The notes under the pieces were generated by a model that made no database searches, was not told the DNA's origin, and saw only the letters and a list, made by a program, of their open reading frames with translations. 64,000 nucleotides of DNA, taken from positions 81,743 through 145,742 of the forward strand of contig LIQB01000003.2 of the NCBI GenBank assembly GCA_001411745.2, in the 5' to 3' direction. Position numbers and translations under genes: made by a program. Within the stretch, counting starts at the first letter, position 1. The number at the start of each line of letters is the position of its first letter. Below are positions 36,209 through 48,677 of the stretch, piece by piece. The DNA is from Psychrobacter glacincola (lineage in GTDB: Bacteria; Pseudomonadota; Gammaproteobacteria; Pseudomonadales; Moraxellaceae).

Positions 36209-38050
36209 ATGACGCAAAGCACTATGACGCATAGCGAATATCGAGACGAATATTGCGGAGCCGTAACCGAAAGCTTCATCGATCAAACCATCAGTATCGT
36301 AGGCTGGGTACATCGTCGTCGCGATCACGGTGGCGTGATTTTTTTAGACATGCGTGACCGCGCTGGTATCTTGCAGGTCGTCGTTGACCCTGATACGCCA
36401 GAAGCCTTTGCTACTGCTGATGCGGTACGTCCTGAATATGTGCTAAAAATCACTGGTCGCGTACGTCAACGCTACGCGGGTACTGAAAACAATAGTATGA
36501 CCAGTGGTCAGATTGAGCTGTTGGGCAAAGAAATTGAAGTATTGGCAAAATCTGAAACACCGCCTTTCCCATTAAATGATGAGAAAACCACGGTATCAGA
36601 AGACTTGCGTTTAAAATATCGCTATCTTGATATGCGTCGTCCGCAAATGCAAGAGCGTATGGTTTTCCGTGCTAAAGCCACGTCAGCCATTCGTCGTTAC
36701 TTAGATGACCATGGTTTCTTAGACGTTGAAACCCCTATCTTGACTCGTGCGACACCAGAAGGCGCGCGTGATTATCTTGTGCCATCACGCACACGCCCAG
36801 GTAACTTTTTCGCATTGCCACAATCACCACAGTTATTCAAACAGCTGTTGATGGTGTCAGGTTTTGATCGTTATTATCAAATCGCTAAATGTTTCCGTGA
36901 CGAAGACTTACGTGCTGACCGTCAGCCTGAATTTACCCAAGTCGATATTGAAACTTCTTTCTTAAATGAAGAAGAAATCATGAACATCAACGAAGGTTTG
37001 ATTAAGCATTTATTCAAAACCATGATGGATGTTGAGTTTGAGCAATTCCCACGCATGACTTACGCTGAAGCAATGCGTGACTATGCCTCAGACAAGCCTG
37101 ACTTACGTATTCCATTAAAACTCATCGACGTTGCTGATCTAATGAAAGACGTTGATTTTAAAGTATTTGCCGGTCCTGCTAACGATCCTAAAGGTCGCGT
37201 TGCTGCCCTACGAATCCCTGGCGGCGCGTCATTAAGCCGTAAGCAAATCGATGCTTATACCAAATTCGTTAGCATCTATGGCGCACGTGGTTTGGCTTAT
37301 ATCAAGGTTAACGATGCGAGCAACATTAACAACGGCGTTGACCAAGAATCTGGTCTTCAGTCTCCTATCATCAAAAATATGACCGATGACGTATTGGTAA
37401 GCTTGATTGAGCGTACTGGTGCAGAAAGCAACGATATTATTTTCTTTGGTGCGGATAAAGCCAGTGTCGTCAATGACGCAATCGGCGCACTACGTCAAAA
37501 AATTGGTCTAGACCTTGAGATGACCACTTGTCAGTGGGCGCCACTTTGGGTCACTGATTTCCCAATGTTTGAGCAAACGGACGATGGTCGTTGGACGTCA
37601 ATGCATCACCCGTTTACTAAACCTAAAGGTTCTGTTGATGAATTGAAAAACAACCCAGAATCTGCCCTTTCTATCGCTTATGATATGGTATTGAACGGTA
37701 CAGAAGTTGGCGGTGGTAGCTTACGTATCAATACCTTTGATATGCAGCAAGCGGTACTTGATGCTTTAGGTATCGGCGAGCAAGAAGCTCAAGACAAGTT
37801 TGGCTTCTTACTTGACGCCCTAAAATTCGGTGCGCCGCCGCATGGTGGCTTGGCCTTTGGTTTGGATCGTCTGATTATGCTCATGGTAGGCGCGGACTCT
37901 ATCCGTGATGTTATCGCTTTCCCAAAAACCAAAACTGCTGAATGCCCACTAACTCAAGCACCTGCTGAAGTCGATAGCAAACAGCTACGTGATCTTGGTA
38001 TCCGTGTGCGCGAAAAAGCACAGGCTGACACCAACAAACCTGCGCAATAA
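36209..38050 (+). CDS. aspS: aspartate-tRNA ligase
   Basis: A class II aminoacyl-tRNA synthetase of 613 residues, close to the bacterial-type length of about 590. In order: an OB-fold anticodon-binding domain ([23 protein letters not shown] at 31-53), motif 2 ([21 protein letters not shown]), a GAD insertion domain (about 290-420), and motif 3 ([15 protein letters not shown]). Flipping-loop and tRNA-contact residues look normal. A second ATG at codon 6 is an alternative start. The ribosome binding site is weak. It is followed closely by an acyltransferase gene on the same strand. Confidence 0.96.
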
Positions 38051-38111: not shown

Positions 38112-39077
38112 ATGGTTATGAATCCGTATCACATTTTTAAAATCGTGCCATTGTCTGTCTTGCAGATACTGGCACGTTTTGTTGCGTGGGTGATTATCAA
38201 GATACCCAATTTGAGTATCATGCGTACAGTCAGTATCAATATGGCGTTAATTGCGCCTAAGCTGACTGATGTGCAAAAACAAGTATTAACCAAAGAGATT
38301 ATTTATCACCAGTGTTTGACCAGTATTGAATCGATCAAAAGCTGGGCCATGCCACCTGAGTGGAGTATCGCTCAGATTCGCGACGTTCATAATAAAGACA
38401 TTTTATTAGAAGGACTTGCGAGTGCCAACGGCATGCTCGCTATCGTGCCGCATCTCGGTACATGGGAGATGATGAACGCTTGGCTCAATCAATTTGGTTC
38501 CCCAACCATTATGTACAAACCTGTCAAAGGCGAAATTACCAACAACTTTGTGCTACAAGGGCGTTCAAGGCTTAATGCGACCTTAGTACCAACCGATGGT
38601 AGCGGTGTCAAAGCCATATTTAAAACCCTCAAACAAGGTGGCTTTAGTATCGTCTTACCCGATCATGTTCCCGACCCTTCGGGCGGCGTGGTTGTGCCCT
38701 TTTTTGGTATTAAAACATTAACCAGTACGCTTGCTTCTAAACTTGCTAGTAAAACCAGATGTGCCTTGGTCGGCTTATCTTGTATTCGCCGTGACGATGG
38801 TCGTGGATTTGACATCTATTGTTATAAGCTCGATGATCCAGCACTTTATGATCGTCATGCCGAGACCGCCGCTTATGCACTTAACCAAGCCATGCAACAG
38901 ATGATTGAAGAAAAATGCAGTCACTATATGTGGGGCTATCGACGTTTCAAACACATTCCCACATTAGGGAATCCTTACAACGTTGATGAAGAAACTTTAG
39001 CCAAATTCATTCTTGACAACAAGTGGGCTGATCAAAACGTTCATGATACAACCAAGCGCGCTGGCAATGAACAATGA
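38112..39077 (+). CDS. LpxL/HtrB-family lysophospholipid or lipid A acyltransferase
   Basis: A 321-residue acyltransferase with the family's catalytic His-x4-Glu as HLGTWE at residues 114-119 and a hydrophobic N-terminal segment that docks it to the inner membrane. Later landmarks are IVLPDHVPDPSGGVVVPFFG and HYMWGYRRFK. The enzymes add secondary acyl chains to lipid A precursors from acyl-ACP. It sits 61 bases after aspS and 297 bases before a glycan cluster, which fits a role in lipooligosaccharide assembly. Two near-adjacent ATGs, 38112 and 38118, are possible starts. It could also be an ornithine-lipid type acyltransferase. Confidence 0.85.
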   Translation: MVMNPYHIFKIVPLSVLQILARFVAWVIIKIPNLSIMRTVSINMALIAPKLTDVQKQVLTKEIIYHQCLTSIESIKSWAMPPEWSIAQIRDVHNKDILLEGLASANGMLAIVPHLGTWEMMNAWLNQFGSPTIMYKPVKGEITNNFVLQGRSRLNATLVPTDGSGVKAIFKTLKQGGFSIVLPDHVPDPSGGVVVPFFGIKTLTSTLASKLASKTRCALVGLSCIRRDDGRGFDIYCYKLDDPALYDRHAETAAYALNQAMQQMIEEKCSHYMWGYRRFKHIPTLGNPYNVDEETLAKFILDNKWADQNVHDTTKRAGNEQ

Positions 39078-39373: not shown

Positions 39374-40174
39374 ATGGCAACTGACGTAACCAATACCTCA
39401 TCGACAGACCACACGCACGCACGCAGCAGCACTGCTGAGCAGCGTTATGTTATCTGTATGAAATGGGGTGACAAATACGGCGCTGAGTACGTCAACCGTC
39501 TTTATAATATGGTCAGTCGCCATTTGACCTTAGACTTCCAAATGATCTGCCTCACTGATGATAGCAGCGGTATCGACCCTGCTGTGACTTGCCATCCTAT
39601 TCCAGAGATGGATTTGCCTGCTGGGCCTGAGCGTGGTTGGAAAAAACTCACGACTTTCAAACCTGAACTATATGGCCTTAAAGGTGTGGCTTTATTTTTA
39701 GATATCGACATTGTTATTGTTGACAACATAGATGCCTTTTTTACCTATCAAGCTCAGCATAAAGACAGCGTGGTGATTATCCGTGATTGGAAAAAACCGT
39801 GGCGAATGATTGGTAATAGCTCTGTTTATCGTTTCAATATTGGCATGAACACCTATCCTGATTTGCTCGCAAACTTTGAGCGTAACTTTGCCACCATTCG
39901 TACCCAAGTGCGCCATGAGCAGGCTTATCTGTCTAACTATTTACGTGAGCATCATCATTTAGAGTATTGGGATAAAACGTGGTGTGTAAGCTTCAAGTAC
40001 CAATGCATCGCCCCTATTCCCTTTAACTTTGTGCGTGCGCCTACTCTGCCGGATGGCGCAAAGATTGTCATCTTTCATGGTGAGATTAATCCGCCAGATG
40101 CCATCAATGGTAGCGGCGGCAAGTGGTATCGTCATGTTAAGCCAAGCCCTTGGCTAAAAAATTATTGGCGATAA
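39374..40174 (+). CDS. Glycosyltransferase (GT-A-type, DXD)
   Basis: A 266-residue cytoplasmic protein. The core begins RYVICMKWGDKYGAEYVNRLY, and the segment GVALFLDIDIVIVDNI near residues 110-125 contains a DXD-type motif (DID) expected to bind a nucleotide-sugar and metal. The fold looks like the glycogenin/GT8-like group, though the family assignment is uncertain. The first 22 residues are polar and rich in Thr/Ser/His. It is the first gene of the surface-glycan cluster, with AGTGCATT before the ATG and a MITE-like element upstream. Donor and acceptor sugars cannot be told. Confidence 0.72.
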   Translation: MATDVTNTSSTDHTHARSSTAEQRYVICMKWGDKYGAEYVNRLYNMVSRHLTLDFQMICLTDDSSGIDPAVTCHPIPEMDLPAGPERGWKKLTTFKPELYGLKGVALFLDIDIVIVDNIDAFFTYQAQHKDSVVIIRDWKKPWRMIGNSSVYRFNIGMNTYPDLLANFERNFATIRTQVRHEQAYLSNYLREHHHLEYWDKTWCVSFKYQCIAPIPFNFVRAPTLPDGAKIVIFHGEINPPDAINGSGGKWYRHVKPSPWLKNYWR

Positions 40175-40190
40175 ACCCATAGGAAATACC

Positions 40191-41192
40191 ATGAAAGCAG
40201 ATGATGAAAAGCAAATAGATATTGTGATTGCTTGGGTAGATGGTGATGAGCCACTGCTTAAACAAAAAAGAGCGCGTTATCAGAAAACAACCAGCGCGGC
40301 ATCTGATGCTATCAGTTCAACACGTTTCGCCAGTAACGATGAAATATATTACAATATTGCCTCCATCATAAAATACGTACCTTTCTGTCGACATATCTAT
40401 ATCGTCACCGACCAACAGCAACCGGCACTGATTGAAGCATTTGCTGAACAGAATATTTGTGCAAAAGACAAGATACGTATCATCGATCATAAAGACCTCT
40501 TTGCGGGCTATGAGCAGTTTTTACCTACTTTTAACACGCGGTCTATTGAAAGCATGCTATGGAATATCTCAGATCTGTCTGATTATTTTATATACATGAA
40601 TGATGATTTTTTCTTCAACCAACCTGCTGTTATTACAGATTTTTTAGATGACGACACGATTATCATTCATGGTCATTGGCGAAAAAACACCCTTCTACAA
40701 GCCAAACTCCAATATCGAAAATCTCTACAAAAACTATCAGGCAAAAAAGTTCAACCCAAACATACAATTGCCCAAATGCTCAGCGCTAAAATCTTGGGGA
40801 TGAATCAGTTTTTTGAAGTGCACCACTATCCCCATATTGTCGATAAGAATATTTTAAAAAACTATCTTTTGCATAACCCTCAGCTATTGATTGAGCAAAT
40901 TCAATATAAGTTTAGAGATGTGGCTCAGGTAAATCCCATTACCTTAATGAATCACTTAAAGATTCAACAAGGACAAGCTTGTCTCAAGCCACCCGTAGCG
41001 ATCAACTATCTAAAAAATGAAGATGGTGTTGAGGATTTTTTAGCAGGTTTGCAAAAACAATCTGTCAAATATGGCTGCATACAAAGCTTAGACTTGCTGG
41101 ACTCTGACTCCCGTAACAATATTACCGAGGCGATGATTCAGAAGTTTTCCCAGCATCTGCCATCATCGTTATTGCTAAATCTCACTAAATAA
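40191..41192 (+). CDS. Stealth-family capsular polysaccharide phosphotransferase
   Basis: A 333-residue protein with the Stealth conserved regions. CR1 is IDIVIAWVDGDEP at about 9-21. CR2 follows from about residue 47 (RFASNDEIYYNIASIIKYVPF) through YIVTDQQQP and LPTFNTRSIESMLW to YFIYMNDDFFF near 134-143, which holds the metal-binding NDD. The later HYPHIVDKN matches CR3. Stealth proteins are hexose-1-phosphate transferases (for example the Neisseria capsule polymerases) and relate to human GlcNAc-1-phosphotransferase. The gene follows the upstream glycosyltransferase by 16 bases and has AGGAAATACC as its ribosome binding site. A phosphodiester-linked sugar in the surface glycan is the natural inference. 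Confidence 0.87.
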   Translation: MKADDEKQIDIVIAWVDGDEPLLKQKRARYQKTTSAASDAISSTRFASNDEIYYNIASIIKYVPFCRHIYIVTDQQQPALIEAFAEQNICAKDKIRIIDHKDLFAGYEQFLPTFNTRSIESMLWNISDLSDYFIYMNDDFFFNQPAVITDFLDDDTIIIHGHWRKNTLLQAKLQYRKSLQKLSGKKVQPKHTIAQMLSAKILGMNQFFEVHHYPHIVDKNILKNYLLHNPQLLIEQIQYKFRDVAQVNPITLMNHLKIQQGQACLKPPVAINYLKNEDGVEDFLAGLQKQSVKYGCIQSLDLLDSDSRNNITEAMIQKFSQHLPSSLLLNLTK

Positions 41193-41233: not shown

Positions 41234-42400
41234 ATGAAAATAACAGTAGTAGGTACAGGCTATGTCGGCTTATCCAATGCTATGTTACTTGCCCAGCACA
41301 ATAAAGTAATCGCTGTCGATGTCATAGCAGAAAGAGTCGAGATGTTGAATGCCAAGCAATCTCCTATTGAAGATCCAGATATTGAAGATTTTTTACTCAA
41401 CAAACCCATCGATTTCACAGCCACTTTAGATGCCAAAGCCGCTTACAAAGACGCAGATTTTATTATTGTTGCTACCCCTACGGATTACGACTCAAAGACC
41501 AACTATTTTAATACCAAAAGTGTTGAAAGCGTCGTTGAAGAGGTGCTGAGTGTTAATAAAAATGCGCTAATCGTTATAAAATCAACAGTGCCCGTCGGCT
41601 ATACCAATGATATTAGAAAACGATTTTTGACAGATAACATCATTTTTTCGCCTGAATTTTTACGCGAAGGTAAAGCGCTATATGACAATCTTTACCCTTC
41701 GAGAATTATCGTCGGTGAGCAGTCGGAACGTGCGAGACAATTTGCAGATTTGCTCTTGGAAGGTGCGATAAAGAAAGACGTTCCTCAGCTATTTACTGAA
41801 TCTACTGAAGCTGAGGCCATTAAATTATTTTCCAATACTTATTTGGCGATGCGTGTTGCTTATTTTAATGAGCTAGATACGTATGCCCAGACTTTTGGGT
41901 TAGATACCAAACAAATTATTGAAGGCGTAGGATTAGACCCGCGTATCGGCAATCATTACAACAATCCGTCGTTTGGCTATGGTGGCTATTGCTTGCCTAA
42001 AGACACCAAACAGCTATTGGCAAATTATGATGACGTCCCGAGCAACCTTATTAGAGCCATCGTTGATTCTAATAGCACTCGTAAAGATTTTATTGCTGAT
42101 AAAATTATTGAAAAGCAACCAAAAATTGTTGGTATCCATCGACTAGTGATGAAAAGTGGCTCGGACAATTTCAGAGCGTCTGCTATTCAAGGCATTATGA
42201 AGCGTATCAAAGCAAAAGGTATCGAAGTGGTTGTCTATGAACCCGTGTTAAAAGAAGAAGAGTTTTTTAACTCAAAAGTCATTAAGGATTTGGACGCATT
42301 CAAAGCCATGAGCGATATTATCGTGGCGAACCGCTTATCTGCAGACATCCAAGATGTGTCGCATAAAGTGTTTACTAGAGATTTATTTGGGAGCGATTAA
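41234..42400 (+). CDS. ugd: UDP-glucose 6-dehydrogenase
   Basis: A 388-residue NAD-dependent enzyme that oxidises UDP-glucose to UDP-glucuronate. The cofactor motif is GTGYVGLSN at 7-15. [34 protein letters not shown], and the catalytic Cys253 in [14 protein letters not shown] identify the family; the substrate-binding loops are intact. Its stop codon overlaps the next gene's start (42400), so the two are tightly coupled and together give UDP-glucuronate and, after epimerisation, UDP-galacturonate. This supplies an acidic sugar for the cluster's glycan. Confidence 0.95.
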
Positions 42401-43422
42401 TGAAGATTTTAGTGACTGGTGCCGCAGGTTTTATTGGCTTTCATTTAATTAAAGCATTGCTGGGCAAAGATTGCTTTATTGTCGGTATTGACAACCTAAA
42501 CTCGTATTATGAGGTTACGTTAAAAAAAGACCGTCTCAAAATCCTAAACGAACAATCAAACGAAGATACTTTTAGTTTTATCACCTTAGATCTGGCTGAC
42601 CGAGAAGCAATGGCCAGTTTATTCGCTGAACATGGCTTTGATATCGTGATTAATCTCGGCGCACAAGCGGGCGTGCGCTATTCTATCGAAAAGCCACATG
42701 AATACATTGATTCCAATGTAGTAGGATTTCTGAACGTGCTTGAAGGCTGTCGACAGACTCAGGTAAAACATTTGGTATACGCCAGCTCTAGCTCTGTATA
42801 CGGTATGAATATCAAGCAGCCTTTTAGCACTGGAGATCGTGTAGATTATCCTATTAGCTTGTATGCTGCGACCAAAAAATCTAACGAGTTAATGGCGCAT
42901 ACTTATAGTCATTTATACAATATCCCCACGACAGGGTTACGCTTTTTTACGGTCTATGGCCCTTATGGTCGCCCTGATATGGCCTACTTTTCATTCACCA
43001 AAAGAATACTGGCAGGCGAGCAGATAGATGTCTATAACAATGGTGAGATGCAACGTGATTTCACCTACATTGATGATATTGTCGAAGGCATCACTCGTAT
43101 TATTGATAAAATCCCAGAACCACAACAATCTTTTGCGACCACGGCAATCGCACCTTACCAAATCTACAATATCGGTAATAACCAACCCGTAACGCTGCGC
43201 CGCTTTATTACCGCGATTGAAAGTGCATGCGGTAAAAAAGCAAAAGAAAACTTGTTGCCCATGCAGCCAGGTGACGTCCCAGCGACTTATGCCGACATAG
43301 ACGAGCTAACAGCCGACATTGGCTTTAGACCTGAAACTAGTATCGAAGATGGCATCTTAAAATTTGTAAATTGGTACAGAGCCTATTATCTAGAAGAACC
43401 AACAGAATCACAGCAAGTATAA
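42400..43422 (+). CDS. NAD-dependent UDP-glucuronate 4-epimerase-type protein
   Basis: An extended SDR of 340 residues. GAAGFIG at 7-13 binds NAD; the catalytic set is the Ser cluster SSSSVYG at 129-135, Tyr155 and Lys159 in LYAATKKSNELMAH. TVYGPYGRPDMAYFSFT and RDFTYIDDIVEGI are characteristic of UDP-glucuronate epimerases (Gla/LspL/CapI type). Its coupling to ugd by overlapping stop and start codons strongly supports UDP-glucuronate as substrate. UDP-N-acetylhexosamine epimerisation is less likely. Confidence 0.92.
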   Translation: MKILVTGAAGFIGFHLIKALLGKDCFIVGIDNLNSYYEVTLKKDRLKILNEQSNEDTFSFITLDLADREAMASLFAEHGFDIVINLGAQAGVRYSIEKPHEYIDSNVVGFLNVLEGCRQTQVKHLVYASSSSVYGMNIKQPFSTGDRVDYPISLYAATKKSNELMAHTYSHLYNIPTTGLRFFTVYGPYGRPDMAYFSFTKRILAGEQIDVYNNGEMQRDFTYIDDIVEGITRIIDKIPEPQQSFATTAIAPYQIYNIGNNQPVTLRRFITAIESACGKKAKENLLPMQPGDVPATYADIDELTADIGFRPETSIEDGILKFVNWYRAYYLEEPTESQQV

Positions 43423-43467: not shown

Positions 43468-44232
43468 ATGAAGACATTGATATATTTGATTAATTTAGAT
43501 GGAAGCGATACGCGTCTAGAGAGCGCAACTCAGCAGTTAGAGCAGATAGACTGGCCATTTGAAAGGATACCTGCCTATGATGGTCGCGGCAAAGAGCTGT
43601 CTGATTTTGTAGATTATGATGATTTTCAAGCCAGAAAAAATCTAGGACGTGGCTTATTAAGCTCCGAAATCGGCTGCTATCTAAGTCATTACAACTGCGC
43701 TGAACAATTTTTGCAGACGGATGCTGACTTTTTGGTTGTACTAGAAGATGATATGACCTTGTCTACAAGCTTCAAGACAATCGTCAATGAAACCCTAGCG
43801 TTTTTATATGCTCATCCAACGTTGGACTGGTACTTGATAAATCTTGCAGCAAAAAAGAAAAAGCTTGCTCGGGATATCGTTAGCTTTGATAAACATACAT
43901 TATGGCACGCCTATTATTTTCCTATTCGTGGTCTTGGCCTCATTTGGTCACGTAAGGGTGCTGAAGCATTTATAGCAGCCGCCAAACCCATCTCTATGCC
44001 CGTTGATATATTTTTCCAACAATGGCTGAGTGACAATGGGAAAGGTTTGGGGGTTTGGCCTGCATTGGTACAGCCCTTGGGACTTGACAGCGATATCTTA
44101 GGAACCGAGGCTTCGCAAAACATAAAACGCAAAGACAAAGAAAATCGAGACTTGTCCTATAATATAAAAAAACAGAAAAGAATGTGGCAAAATAAAACCA
44201 CGGCTGTTGCCAACTTATACCTAAACAAGTAG
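43468..44232 (+). CDS. GT25-family LOS glycosyltransferase (1)
   Basis: A 254-residue glycosyltransferase of family 25, as in Lex2B/LgtB-like LOS enzymes. The N-terminus IYLINLDGSDTRLES matches the GT25 opening INLxxSxxR, and LSSEIGCYLSHYNCAEQF and VVLEDDMTL (acidic EDD at 93-95) match the central motifs. GT25 members add galactose or glucose to LOS. The C-terminal third is basic, as usual for enzymes that sit on the inner membrane face. AAGGAAGAGTCAACCT precedes the ATG. Confidence 0.87.
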   Translation: MKTLIYLINLDGSDTRLESATQQLEQIDWPFERIPAYDGRGKELSDFVDYDDFQARKNLGRGLLSSEIGCYLSHYNCAEQFLQTDADFLVVLEDDMTLSTSFKTIVNETLAFLYAHPTLDWYLINLAAKKKKLARDIVSFDKHTLWHAYYFPIRGLGLIWSRKGAEAFIAAAKPISMPVDIFFQQWLSDNGKGLGVWPALVQPLGLDSDILGTEASQNIKRKDKENRDLSYNIKKQKRMWQNKTTAVANLYLNK

Positions 44233-44242
44233 TTTATATTTT

Positions 44243-45010
44243 ATGAAAAATATCGTAATAAGTTTAGAATCTGCGGTAGAGCGCAGAAAGCATATACACG
44301 AAGAGTTTGGCAAACATAAAGTAGATTTTGAGTTCTTTGATGCGTTAACTCCAGATTTGGCTCATACTTATGCTCAAAATTTGCCCATTAATTTAGAAAA
44401 CATCGCTTTGACTGGTGGCGAATTGGCATGTTTTATAAGCCATGCTTCCGTTTGGCAACAAATGATTGATCAAAATATACCGTATTTAGCCATTTTTGAA
44501 GATGATATATATTTAGGTGAAGATGCAGAAGCGCTATTAACCACCACGAGTTGGATAAAACCTGACTGGCATATTATTAAAACAGAAGCCTTTTCCGAAA
44601 AAGTCTTTTTGTCCTCCAACTCCTCTGAGATTGTTTCAAATAGGCGGCGCATTGCCCAATTAAAAGGGAAAAATTTAGGTACCGCCGGTTATATTTTGTC
44701 GTCGCGCGGTGCGCAAGTATATTTGGACTATATCTCAAAAAACAAACTGCGACCGCTTGATGAGTTAATGTTTGACGATTTTATCAAACATGACGCTGAA
44801 CCCGTCTATCAAATGACCCCTGCTCTATGCATTCAAGAAATGCTGTTAAATAAAGGCAATCCCTCGCTCCCAAGCGCCCTAATTACAGATCGTCAAGGTC
44901 GTATGAAGTCAGAGAAAAAACCTGCTATGTTTAAAGCGAAGCGCGAAATTAACAGGGTTGCGATGAAACTTAAGAAATCCATATTTGCGACAGAAGTGGT
45001 TTTTAAATAG
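44243..45010 (+). CDS. GT25-family LOS glycosyltransferase (2)
   Basis: A second GT25 enzyme, 255 residues, 10 bases after the first. It opens NIVISLESAVERRKHIHEEF, and carries GGELACFISHASVW and AIFEDDIYLGEDAE (EDD at 86-88). It is clearly diverged from its neighbour, so the two probably add different sugars or linkages rather than being a recent duplication. The C-terminus is rich in lysine and arginine. It is probably in the same transcript. Confidence 0.87.
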   Translation: MKNIVISLESAVERRKHIHEEFGKHKVDFEFFDALTPDLAHTYAQNLPINLENIALTGGELACFISHASVWQQMIDQNIPYLAIFEDDIYLGEDAEALLTTTSWIKPDWHIIKTEAFSEKVFLSSNSSEIVSNRRRIAQLKGKNLGTAGYILSSRGAQVYLDYISKNKLRPLDELMFDDFIKHDAEPVYQMTPALCIQEMLLNKGNPSLPSALITDRQGRMKSEKKPAMFKAKREINRVAMKLKKSIFATEVVFK

Positions 45011-45064
45011 TATTTTTTATCGTTAAATATTTTATTATGATAATAATTTTGGAATGGGAAAGTA

Positions 45065-45919
45065 ATGACGGAAGATAATAAACCATCTGTAGCCATATTA
45101 TATATTGCCACTGGTCGATATACCGTTTTTTGGGATTACTTCTATTGCTCTGCTGAAAAACACTTACTTCCCAATAGTAACAAACACTATGTTTTATTTA
45201 CGGATGACCTAGCATTAATCAGCAGGCAGACTGACTATCCGAATGTCACAATGATCAAACAGGAAGCTTTAGGATGGCCTTATAGCACATTGATGCGCTT
45301 TAAATTCTTTTTAGGGGCAAAGTCTATTATTGAAAAATATGACTTCATATTCTACTTTAATGCCAATACAGAGTTCCTTTCTGATATCACTGAAGATGAG
45401 TTGTTGCCCCTCGATCAGCATGAGGAGCTGAGTCTTGGCGTTCAGCCTCATATGTTTCATCTCAATAAACGTGCCTACACTTATGATCGTAACCCTCAAT
45501 CACAAGCATATATTCCCTATCATAAAGGAAAATATTATTTCACAGGTGCGTTGAATGGTGGGAAATCTCATGCATATTTACAGATGTGCGAAACTCTCAA
45601 CCAAAACACAGAATTAGATTTAAAAAATAACGTTATTGCACTATGGCATGATGAAAGTCAATTGAACAAATTTGCATTAGACCGCACAGATATCAAGGTT
45701 CTACCACCCTATTTCACACGTGGAGAGCACGAATACTGGAAAAAAAGCTCAAAAATAATGTTTTCGGATAAAACACATTATCGATTTGGCGGACATGCTT
45801 ATCTAAGAGCTGAAACAAATGACAAAATTACAAAATCTGACTGGGAACAGAAGAATGGCAAACGTCGAAGAAAGCTCAACACTCGATTCAAGCAATATAT
45901 CGCCTCACTTTTTTTCTGA
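45065..45919 (+). CDS. GT6-family (ABO blood-group-like) glycosyltransferase
   Basis: A 284-residue enzyme with the landmarks of glycosyltransferase family 6, the family of the human ABO and alpha-1,3-galactosyl transferases: VAILYIATGRYTVFWDYFY at the start, GWPYSTLMRFKFFL at 70-83, YFTGALNGGK at 158-167 and WHDESQLNKF at 194-203. The metal-binding DXD of animal members is replaced by NAN (FYFNANTEF, residues 99-101), as in the bacterial metal-independent GT6 enzymes. The likely product is alpha-1,3-linked GalNAc or Gal on the surface glycan. Its 3' end overlaps the next gene. Confidence 0.85.
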   Translation: MTEDNKPSVAILYIATGRYTVFWDYFYCSAEKHLLPNSNKHYVLFTDDLALISRQTDYPNVTMIKQEALGWPYSTLMRFKFFLGAKSIIEKYDFIFYFNANTEFLSDITEDELLPLDQHEELSLGVQPHMFHLNKRAYTYDRNPQSQAYIPYHKGKYYFTGALNGGKSHAYLQMCETLNQNTELDLKNNVIALWHDESQLNKFALDRTDIKVLPPYFTRGEHEYWKKSSKIMFSDKTHYRFGGHAYLRAETNDKITKSDWEQKNGKRRRKLNTRFKQYIASLFF

Positions 45920-46880
45920 TAGTGAGAGCCATAAACAGCTTAAAAAGAAAAAGAAAAAACCTTATCGTTATCTATATAACTTAACCACCCCACACAGCAA
46001 ACGCAAAGCGTTTGAAAAAGAGGCCAATCTTGAGCAACAAAATCAAGTTGCCACGTGTTGGGCATCTTTTATTGAGCTATATTACAGTGACAAGCTAGAA
46101 TTTTTTTCATTACAGCCAAAAAAAGAATTTGATGATGAAAAAATAATTTGGCAGTATTGGGGTCAAGGTATTAATAAAAATCAGTTGCCTGAAGCAGTTA
46201 AATTATATTTCAAATCGATAGACAAACACTGTCCAGACTATAAAATAATCCGGCTAGATGACAGTAATATTCATGAATATCTGGATCTACCTAAATTTGT
46301 TTGGGATAAAAAAACACTCTCAGGATTTAAACCGGCATTTTTTGCAGATTTATTACGCCTAGCATTACTTGATGTTTATGGCGGCGTTTGGTTAGATGCA
46401 ACTATCTATCTCACCGAACCTTTGCCTAATATGTTACAGGATAATGGTTTTTTTATGTACCAGCGCGACACAGACGCACATAATAAACAACAATGGCATA
46501 AATTTAATAGCTACTATTTTAACTGGGATAGTAAGCACAAGGTAAACTTGCTGAATAGCGTTATCTTTGCTCACAAAAAAAATCCGGTCATTCATACGTG
46601 TTTGGATTTAATGTTAAACTTTTGGAAAACGCAAGAATATATTCCTCATTATTTTTTCTTCCAAATCTTATTTGACACGCTCATTAAGGGCAAACTTGCA
46701 CAGTATCAATGCCCTATCATCGATGATACTAAACCTCATTTACTAGTTGCTACTTTGCATAACCTTTATGCTGAAGCCGATTATCAAAACATAGTCTCAC
46801 AAGCTGGCATCCATAAAATGTCTTATGTTAAACAAGTCAGACCTGATTCGTACTATGAATACTTATTAAAAAACACTTAA
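45855..46880 (+). CDS. Capsular polysaccharide synthesis (GT32-like) glycosyltransferase
   Basis: A protein of about 341 residues. The IIWQYWGQG opening, GFKPAFFADLLRLALLDVYGGVWLDATIYL with the DXD-like LDA near 181 and the later HLLVATLHNLY region match the Caps_synth/OCH1 group of GT32-like transferases. The frame is open upstream to 45819, but an ATG at 45855 gives a more likely start, overlapping the GT6 gene by 65 bases in another frame. The first 55 residues are Ser/Lys-rich low complexity, after which the conserved part starts. The ribosome binding site is poor, so translational coupling to the GT6 gene is likely. Confidence 0.8.
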   Translation: MANVEESSTLDSSNISPHFFSDSESHKQLKKKKKKPYRYLYNLTTPHSKRKAFEKEANLEQQNQVATCWASFIELYYSDKLEFFSLQPKKEFDDEKIIWQYWGQGINKNQLPEAVKLYFKSIDKHCPDYKIIRLDDSNIHEYLDLPKFVWDKKTLSGFKPAFFADLLRLALLDVYGGVWLDATIYLTEPLPNMLQDNGFFMYQRDTDAHNKQQWHKFNSYYFNWDSKHKVNLLNSVIFAHKKNPVIHTCLDLMLNFWKTQEYIPHYFFFQILFDTLIKGKLAQYQCPIIDDTKPHLLVATLHNLYAEADYQNIVSQAGIHKMSYVKQVRPDSYYEYLLKNT

Positions 46881-46984
46881 ATACAGCTTTATTACTAATG
46901 CGGACTGTCCCTATAATATAAATCACCTTTTTCTTTTGCTTAGACTATTCATTGAATTTTTTATATGACTAACTGAGATTTATT

Positions 46985-47617
46985 ATGATTTTAATTCAAA
47001 ATCTAAAAAGAATAGATGCAGGCACTCAGAAGTATATATATGAGCACCCATCTGATACTGATAAAATTATCAAAATAATGAAGCCTGAGCATGCGACATA
47101 TAATGGTGGTAGAAAGGGGCAGCATTACTTGCGCGGTCATCATTCTCAGGGCATATACAAACAGTTTCGCAGAGAGATATTGCAATATCTACAGCTTTGT
47201 AAGAATAACTATGGTCAGCAACGATTTACGTTTCCAATGGAAACCGTATATGGCTTTATCGCAACGGATAAAGGGTTGGGCTTAGTGACGGAAAAGGTCA
47301 TAGACCCTAGCGGCTCAACCATGACACTTTATGAGCTTTCTAATACCAATATGTTTAATGACACACATGCAAAGGCGTTAGATAAGTTTTTTGATGAGTG
47401 TTGTGAATTGCATGTGGTATTGGGTGAAGTTAATATTGCTGGCATTATGTATACCGAGCACAGACAAGGTATTCCTGAGTTTGTATTGGTTGATGGCATT
47501 GGTGAAAAATTATTCATTCCTTTTAGGGCAATGAGCAAAACGATTAATAGCCATAATGTTCGAAAGATTGAAAAAAAAATAAAATCCAAAATTAGCTATT
47601 ATTCTACTAAGCATTAG
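46985..47617 (+). CDS. yrbL: YrbL-family protein (PhoP regulatory network type)
   Basis: A 210-residue protein of the YrbL family, which has a kinase-like fold. It matches GTQKYIYEHPSDTDKIIKIMK (the family's R-x-CYxHP... KIxK start), FRREILQYLQL, GFIATDKGLGLVTEKVIDPSGS and the C-terminal VLVDGIGE, equivalent to a DFG-type motif. The catalytic-loop region HVVLGEVNIAGIMY lacks a clear HRD/HxDLxxxN pattern, so it may be a pseudokinase or an unusual kinase. The E. coli homolog is PhoP-regulated and lies by envelope genes. Here it ends a glycan cluster after a 104-base gap, suggesting a role in LOS core modification or its regulation. Confidence 0.78.
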   Translation: MILIQNLKRIDAGTQKYIYEHPSDTDKIIKIMKPEHATYNGGRKGQHYLRGHHSQGIYKQFRREILQYLQLCKNNYGQQRFTFPMETVYGFIATDKGLGLVTEKVIDPSGSTMTLYELSNTNMFNDTHAKALDKFFDECCELHVVLGEVNIAGIMYTEHRQGIPEFVLVDGIGEKLFIPFRAMSKTINSHNVRKIEKKIKSKISYYSTKH

Positions 47618-47747: not shown

Positions 47748-48677
47748 TTAATCAATAAAACTTAACCAATCCATATACTGCTCATTGCGACCATGAACCA
47801 CATCAAAGTACAAGGTTTGTAGCTGCTCAGTCAAAGGTCCACGTCCACCATTGCCGATAGTACGATCATCATATTCACGAATAGGTGTGACTTCAGCCGC
47901 CGTACCCGTCATGAATATCTCATCCGCCAAGTAGAACTCATCACGGGTGATACGGCGCTCAACGACCTTGATGCCTAGATCATCGGCAAATTGAATGATA
48001 GTACGACGCGTGATGCCGTCAAGTGCACCGCCCGCTAAATCTGGCGTATGCAATACACCATCCTTTACTAAAAACAAGTTCTCGCCAGCACCTTGGCAGA
48101 CATAACCTTGCGGATCCATCAAAATTGCTTCGTCATAGCCATTACGAGTGACTTCTTGGTTTGCCATGATAGAAACTGGATAGTTGCTCGAGGCTTTTGC
48201 CTTACACATGGTCACATTGGTCATATGATGAGTAAATGACGAGGTTTTTACACGGATACCATTTTTGATACCCTCTTCACCCAGATAAGCGCCCCAATGC
48301 CAAGCAGCAACCATTGCATTGATACTGTTATCACGTGACGATAAACCAAGCTTTTCTGCACCGACCCAAATTAGTGGGCGGATATAGGCTTCTGCCAAGT
48401 TGTTTTGCTTGACCACATCTTTGTGCGCCTGCTCCAGAGTCGCTGCATCAAACGGTACATTCATTTGAAAGATTTTTGCAGAGCCTAACAGACGCTCGGT
48501 GTGCTCTTTTAGGCGAAAAATTGCCGTACGATTATCAGCAGTTTGGTACGCGCGCACACCTTCAAACACAGCCATGCCATAATGCAGGCTATGCGTCAGC
48601 ACATGGACTTTGGCATCTGGCTGCTCAATCATTGTGCCATTCATCCACAGCTTACCATCTTGTGTTGCCATATTCAT
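47748..48677 (-). CDS. ilvE: branched-chain-amino-acid aminotransferase
   Basis: A fold-type IV PLP aminotransferase of 309 residues that makes Leu, Ile and Val from their keto acids. It has HYGMAVFEGVRAY near 32-44, the PLP Lys161 in KAKASSNYPVS, the cofactor-binding GAGENLFLVKDG and the C-terminal FMTGTAAEVTPIREYD, all as in E. coli IlvE. AAGGATTATAAA precedes the ATG at 48677. leuA, another branched-chain gene, lies in the same window but far away. It shares a terminator with the glycan cluster. Confidence 0.95.
   Translation of the reverse strand: MNMATQDGKLWMNGTMIEQPDAKVHVLTHSLHYGMAVFEGVRAYQTADNRTAIFRLKEHTERLLGSAKIFQMNVPFDAATLEQAHKDVVKQNNLAEAYIRPLIWVGAEKLGLSSRDNSINAMVAAWHWGAYLGEEGIKNGIRVKTSSFTHHMTNVTMCKAKASSNYPVSIMANQEVTRNGYDEAILMDPQGYVCQGAGENLFLVKDGVLHTPDLAGGALDGITRRTIIQFADDLGIKVVERRITRDEFYLADEIFMTGTAAEVTPIREYDDRTIGNGGRGPLTEQLQTLYFDVVHGRNEQYMDWLSFID

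Follow-up and report, generated by a model that had tools for sequence, protein, structure and literature searches.

A family 6 glycosyltransferase related to the human ABO enzymes in the aspS-ilvE interval of Psychrobacter glacincola

The aspS-ilvE interval and its GT6 gene

We analyzed a 64,000-nucleotide stretch of the genome of Psychrobacter glacincola, here called the window. It harbors a glycosyltransferase cluster bordered on one side by a gene that we take, from its protein sequence, to be aspS and on the other by one that is presumably ilvE, likewise named from its protein sequence (Table 1). Within this interval, an open reading frame that runs from ATG to stop exactly across positions 45065 to 45919 of the forward strand encodes a protein of 284 amino acids. 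A sequence-only reading of the window had assigned this protein to glycosyltransferase family 6 (GT6) on the basis of three motifs. All three strings (GWPYSTLMRFKFFL, YFNANTEF, and WHDESQLNKF) are indeed present in the frame, with NAN at residues 99 to 101, and the profile search proposed along with the assignment gave a significant match to Pfam PF03414 (Glyco_transf_6; E value of 1.1e-26 and 93.8 bits against a cut-off of 25). The nearest PDB sequences are chains of BoGT6a from Bacteroides ovatus (CAZy GT6; PDB 4ayj and 4cj8; E value of 3.2e-48), followed by ABO transferases and alpha-1,3-galactosyltransferase, and of the 60 PDB sequences listed out of 72, BoGT6a is the only one of bacterial origin. 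The strength of the PF03414 and BoGT6a matches indicates that the resemblance to GT6 is not due to chance. We consider it confirmed that the frame encodes a GT6 glycosyltransferase and that this bacterial enzyme is truly related to the human ABO transferases. The NCBIfam model NF041524, which is named "family 6 glucosyltransferase" in that collection, scored 247.5 bits, 2.5 under its curated cut-off of 250, and the gene was not filed under it; a class-wide search with this model gave one positive genome among 369, namely that of the window itself.

Table 1. Genes of the aspS-ilvE interval and sites in the GT6 protein (window positions)
Feature	Position	Strand	Basis
aspS, one interval edge	36209..38050	+	Homologues in fetched loci
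Lipid A acyltransferase (lpxL-like)	38112..39077	+	PF03279, 122.8 bits
Conserved 266-aa protein, no family match, possibly glycosyltransferase	39374..40174	+	Conserved in interval
Stealth-type protein	40191..41192	+	PF11380, 95.9 bits, over cut-off; PF17101, 26.7, just under 27.2
UDP-glucose 6-dehydrogenase (ugd)	41234..42400	+	TIGR03026, 348.5 bits, over cut-off; NF011631, 675, under 757
Nucleotide-sugar epimerase	42400..43422	+	PF01370, 198.8 bits
GT25 glycosyltransferase a	43468..44232	+	PF01755, 86 bits
GT25 glycosyltransferase b, directly upstream of GT6	44243..45010	+	PF01755, 145.4 bits
GT6 glycosyltransferase gene, 284 aa	45065..45919	+	ORF; PF03414, 93.8 bits; BoGT6a by sequence and fold
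NAN (residues 99-101), NXN motif in place of the DXD metal site	45359..45367	+	Aligned with BoGT6a Asn95-Ala96-Asn97
QPH (residues 127-129); Gln127 at BoGT6a His122 position	45443..45451	+	Alignment; bovine alpha3GT Gln by eye
TGA tripeptide (residues 160-162), ABO 266-268 counterpart	45542..45550	+	Aligned with BoGT6a Ala155-Gly156-Gly157
WHDES (residues 194-198); Glu197 = BoGT6a Glu192	45644..45658	+	Alignment; Glu192 role from PMC3961637
Lys236 = BoGT6a Lys231, diphosphate contact	45770..45772	+	Alignment; role from PMC3961637
Basic C-terminal helix (residues 257-284), putative membrane contact	45833..45916	+	Predicted helix 257-282; charge
Caps_synth / Gly_transf_sug glycosyltransferase, ATG 45819 or 45852	45852..46880	+	PF05704, 249.5 bits
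YrbL family protein	46985..47617	+	PF10707, 115.4 bits
ilvE, other interval edge	47748..48677	-	Homologue in 70/70 genus genomes searched

Among the neighboring genes, the one for the 266-amino-acid protein has no relative in Pfam, NCBIfam, or the PDB, and the structure model of its product was poor (pLDDT of 46); it is possibly an unrecognized glycosyltransferase. The protein contains the stretch LFLDIDIVI. Each of the 31 Psychrobacter aspS-ilvE intervals examined encodes it, as do three of the six Acinetobacter GT6 intervals (58 to 61%). The epimerase is perhaps a UDP-GlcA 4-epimerase; among the 25 of 29 NCBIfam models listed for it, none scored over its cut-off.

The 3' end of GT6 overlaps the start of the next glycosyltransferase frame in a different reading frame (45819 to 45919), and the same overlap was seen in seven Psychrobacter relatives, as judged by longest-ORF starts. 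The G+C content is 0.33 to 0.35 at positions 45001 to 47000, which cover GT6 and its neighbor, versus mostly 0.39 to 0.48 across the remaining window. This dip is in keeping with cassette exchange.

Fold, active site, and metal-site motif

An AlphaFold model built from the GT6 protein and 37 relatives had a mean pLDDT of 91.9. When this model was compared with known structures by Foldseek and VIA-align 2, BoGT6a ranked first (E value of 1.6e-27), and alignment with 4cj8_M gave a Z score of 33.6 and an rmsd of 1.6 A over 242 residues. ABO and alpha-1,3-galactosyltransferase (alpha3GT) structures came next, with Z scores of about 28 to 30 (29.0 for the bovine alpha3GT structure 1k4v). The overlay on a bacterial GT6 that the sequence-only reading had suggested as a check was thus in its favor: the GT-A core is present, and the model aligns with GT6 structures across residues 1 to 250. 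As had been anticipated as well, the NAN and HDES segments are placed at the predicted active site by alignment with the contact residues of BoGT6a.

This alignment showed a high degree of conservation. Fifteen of the 18 ligand contacts of BoGT6a (Table 2 of PMC3961637) are identical in the window enzyme, and the three changes, from BoGT6a to the window, are N69 to S74, H122 to Q127, and G157 to A162. The catalytic WHDE loop (W194, H195, D196, and E197) and the C-terminal lysine K236 align with W189 to E192 and K231 of BoGT6a, and Arg243, Tyr13, and Trp66 have equivalents, too. At the C terminus, a helix is predicted at residues 257 to 282, with a pLDDT of about 60 to 70 from residue 261 onward. 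Its net charge reaches up to +8 within 18 residues, suggesting membrane contact.

The replacement of the DXD metal site by NXN, also noticed from the sequence, was confirmed, since N99-A100-N101 aligns with N95-A96-N97 of BoGT6a as in the bacterial NXN group of GT6. Across 82 aligned rows, which include near-copies, the first Asn is conserved in 82 and the second in 80. According to PMC3961637, the first Asn of the BoGT6a motif touches the donor and no metal was observed, Asn replaces Asp in nearly all bacterial GT6 enzymes, and GT6 had been recorded in 36 bacterial species and two cyanophages as well as in marine metagenomes. NAN is thus the NXN signature already known from bacterial GT6 enzymes that work without metal, and by analogy with BoGT6a (PMC3961637), the window enzyme is predicted to need no metal. 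We rejected the idea that NAN is an anomaly or a sign of inactivity, as it represents the usual bacterial state. Nor can a GT6 with NXN be called unexpected, as it had been, given the species, phages, and metagenomes already on record; bacterial ABO relatives with the same change at the metal site were known before. In contrast, the human ABO and bovine enzymes have DXD. Human GTA and GTB share the fold and the donor tripeptide site with the window enzyme but are only 25 to 27% identical to it, and bovine alpha3GT, similar in fold, is metal dependent (PMC3961637).

A variable locus shared by Psychrobacter and Acinetobacter

In Acinetobacter baumannii, the lipooligosaccharide (LOS) outer-core (OC) genes are located between ilvE and aspS (PMC4172580). 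The window GT6 sits in the same interval, in good agreement with the LOS-type cluster that had been proposed from the sequence; the proposed Psychrobacter-like host agrees with the named relatives, which are 98 to 99% identical. Judging by its position and by the kinds of genes present, the interval probably builds the LOS outer core. Like the A. baumannii OC loci (OCL1 to OCL22), it holds GT25, Stealth, and Caps_synth genes (PMC10327509). It also carries a GT6 gene, as do six genomes of the Acinetobacter group, whereas neither PF03414 nor Glyco_transf_6 occurs in the main text of PMC10327509. As the OC role is deduced from the location and from what kinds of genes are present, the enzyme might instead serve a capsule or another glycan, or be unexpressed or inactive. 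We consider this unlikely, as the frame is open and WHDE/FHDE, NXN, and Lys are kept at 56 to 99% identity; moreover, the interval holds an lpxL-like gene next to the gene kinds shared with the A. baumannii OCL list.

A search for GT6 relatives found 128, of which 80 were retained (79 loci). In the family, 17 of 348 genomes had a match, 11 of them from the window's genus and 6 from one other genus, which we take to be Acinetobacter. The gene was full length and free of internal stops in 16 of the 17 (10 Psychrobacter, the window's included, and 6 Acinetobacter); named relatives are Acinetobacter ihumii, A. calcoaceticus, A. boissieri, and Acinetobacter sp. A7.4. Genome G696 has a fragment of 69 residues only. 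There, GT6 is cut after residue 69 (L111, 9055 to 9276; 88% identical) right behind an 87% identical GT25b and is followed by other genes, suggestive of a breakpoint between cassettes.

The aspS-ilvE interval is home to all 16 full-length genes. The GT6-negative sample consisted of 20 intervals, picked for contig extent and spread among 52 genomes of the genus without GT6. All 20 retain the 266-amino-acid gene and reach aspS, and their middle part varies. In G046, the ilvE protein is identical to that of the window, yet the cassette is otherwise different. The aspS-ilvE interval is a variable cassette, that is, a glycosyltransferase cluster differing across strains, as is characteristic of an OC locus. 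In the interval of G038 (L015, 7040 to 8097), two ORFs resembling parts of a transposase were seen by eye.

A GT25 gene (PF01755) was found inside the interval in 16 of 16 GT6-positive genomes versus 7 of 20 GT6-negative Psychrobacter genomes (36 genomes); GT25 is therefore also present in seven intervals that lack GT6. Within Psychrobacter alone, the proportions were 10 of 10 and 7 of 20 (Fisher P value of 0.001 by genome), and the association had a P value of 0.03 after near-copies were collapsed to four lineages. Three Acinetobacter GT6 loci carry a divergent GT25 that was caught by PF01755 but missed by blastp, and in two further GT6-negative genomes (G017 and G055) GT25 lies outside the interval. 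One interval copy of GT25 is frame-broken in each of two GT6-negative Psychrobacter genomes (G054, contig C2, 135773 to 136296; G059, contig C1, 2183862 to 2184385).

Judging by titles and the beginnings of abstracts, drawn mostly from outside the subscription literature, a GT6 gene at aspS-ilvE is undescribed in work on GT6 with Psychrobacter, Acinetobacter, or bacterial horizontal transfer. The novelty is limited to a clade of GT6 genes in the Moraxellaceae that is fixed at the OC-locus interval and varies naturally at the donor site known from the blood-group enzymes.

Acceptor, donor, and wider distribution

One of the changed contacts concerns the acceptor. Where BoGT6a, which uses a fucosylated acceptor, has His122, the window enzyme has Gln127, a residue shared by all 16 Moraxellaceae rows. 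ABO also has His at this position, and bovine alpha3GT, by eye, has Gln. The bovine enzyme needs no fucose. A GT11 search of the window genome (completeness of 99.99) returned nothing, and the positive control, a cyanophage with an annotated GT11, was detected; gmd and GDP-fucose synthase gave matches under the cut-off only. The genome is thus without sign of a fucose route, in contrast to the setting of human GTA and GTB, and a Fuc-alpha-1,2-Gal acceptor would not be expected from the same cell. A blood-group A or B epitope is accordingly not borne out. It is true that the enzyme belongs to GT6 and that the enzymes of H. mustelae, E. coli O86, and B. ovatus do make such antigens (PMC4202792), but in view of the missing GT11, the sub-cut-off GDP-fucose genes, and Gln127, we rejected a true fucosylated A or B mimic as hardly credible. 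Although it resembles BoGT6a in fold, NAN motif, and WHDE loop, the window enzyme differs in 3 of 18 ligand contacts, in an acceptor that is unlikely to be fucosylated, and in its Psychrobacter OC-type locus.

GT25 enzymes such as Neisseria LgtB and LgtE add beta-1,4-linked galactose. The LOS core of P. arcticus 273-4 carries Gal-beta-1,4-Glc-beta-1,4 on the inner Glc, although the analogy is qualified by rhamnose at O-3 of that very Gal (PMC4515632), and vertebrate GT6 enzymes form alpha-1,3 links onto beta-galactosyl residues (PMC3961637). Taken together, the GT25 role, the P. arcticus core, and the vertebrate linkage suggest that the window GT6 would cap such a galactose, and by analogy an alpha-1,3 transfer of Gal or GalNAc is likely.

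Our preferred reading, to which we assign a probability of roughly 0.6, is that of a metal-independent GT6 in the Psychrobacter counterpart of the OC locus that would add alpha-Gal, less likely GalNAc, to a non-fucosylated beta-Gal of the LOS outer core. One of the neighboring GT25 enzymes would plausibly place a beta-galactose at the outer-core end, and GT6 would transfer the alpha-linked sugar from UDP, with retention, to O-3 of this terminal residue. The basic C-terminal helix may contact the membrane, and the product would presumably be surface exposed. Family, fold, conserved active site, genomic place, and the Moraxellaceae clade come from this analysis, the metal-free NXN chemistry and the retaining alpha-1,3 linkage come from the published BoGT6a work, and we infer the donor and the acceptor.

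With regard to the donor, ugd and the epimerase lie four and three genes upstream of GT6 in the same direction and could point to a uronic acid nucleotide (UDP-GalA or UDP-GlcA). However, blastp found no ugd homologue in 8 of the 16 GT6-positive intervals (L013, L014, L015, and five of the six from Acinetobacter), and Trp194, His195, Asp196, and Glu197 match BoGT6a. We thus rejected a uronic acid donor as very improbable.

At the site corresponding to ABO residues 266 to 268, a correspondence placed by eye, the window enzyme has Thr-Gly-Ala. Variants of the human A transferase with AGG or LGG show A activity, whereas MGA and HAA lead to Gal transfer or B activity (HAA with scarce A) (PMC6351642); TGA is absent from the variants in the part of that source consulted. 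The tripeptide of bovine alpha3GT, by eye HAA, also ends in Ala. Two galE genes scored over the cut-off in the window genome, so that UDP-Gal should be available. On these sequence grounds UDP-Gal is favored as the donor, but it is not established. The same enzyme might instead use UDP-GalNAc, as A-type transferases do, or both sugars: BoGT6a uses UDP-GalNAc (PMC3961637), GGA, likewise with Ala at 268, confers both A and B activity on the human enzyme (PMC6351642), and according to a review, the choice of donor is governed by residue 266 and not by residue 268 (PMC4202792). Since the window tripeptide ends in Ala, as in the Gal-transferring MGA and HAA and not as in AGG and LGG, we regard GalNAc as a possible but rather unlikely donor and keep UDP-Gal as the favored one. 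The two galE genes lie about 11 kb apart (G000, contig C1, 336088 to 347906), perhaps in another polysaccharide cluster.

The tripeptide varies within the Moraxellaceae. A 91-row tree united its 21 Moraxellaceae rows (from 16 genomes, some of them represented twice) in one clade with a support of 100. A smaller tree, from which columns 74, 75, 100, 139, 160, 162, 163, and 164 were left out, represented each of the 16 GT6-positive Moraxellaceae genomes by a single row and had 6 outgroup rows. TGA is found in 12 of the 16, AGG in three Psychrobacter (two of them identical), and MGG in a single Acinetobacter that branches separately; the branch separating AGG has a support of 92/94 in the smaller tree and 98 in the 91-row tree. 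Parsimony on the smaller tree gave two changes each at positions 160, 162, and 163 and three at position 100. If TGA is ancestral, the change from Ala to Gly at the ABO-268 position arose twice. In both non-TGA lineages, residue 163 is Ile rather than Leu and the NXN motif reads NGN rather than NAN, but A. boissieri, with TGA and NGN, argues against a strict link between NGN and Gly162. Residues 74, 75, and 139 differ as well. The list of fixed differences that separate TGA rows from the others is partly circular because the rows were sorted by tripeptide; of its positions, 79 and 163 alone do not depend on this sorting.

This variation resembles the human A/B donor switch. We tentatively propose, while holding it more doubtful than probable, that the GT6 of the Moraxellaceae LOS locus switched its donor naturally, TGA enzymes being predicted to use Gal and the AGG and MGG enzymes, on two branches, GalNAc. 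If the variants do differ in donor, they would mirror the human A/B polymorphism naturally in bacteria, in the same residues of the active site and on a scaffold for which metal independence is predicted, and would amount to an ABO-like polymorphism of surface sugars among environmental bacteria. The locus that houses this blood-group-type glycosyltransferase is defined, strain variable, and common to Psychrobacter and Acinetobacter, and the product of the enzyme could be read directly from LOS chemistry. We speculate that such surface sugars may touch natural anti-Gal or anti-A/B antibodies, or phage receptors.

GT6 relatives were also sought more widely. A distant blastn search of E. coli genomes with the GT6 gene matched nothing, and a scan of viral contigs gave one pattern match and no relative. 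Psychrobacter sp. PRwf-1 has reportedly been listed among GT6 bacteria before. Two of 72,556 plasmid records matched, from Phocaeicola and Prevotella (40 and 33% identical). By tblastn, the window GT6 had matches in 71 phage records, mostly of Synechococcus and Prochlorococcus phages, and in phage S-8S55 the match adjoins an annotated GT11 gene.
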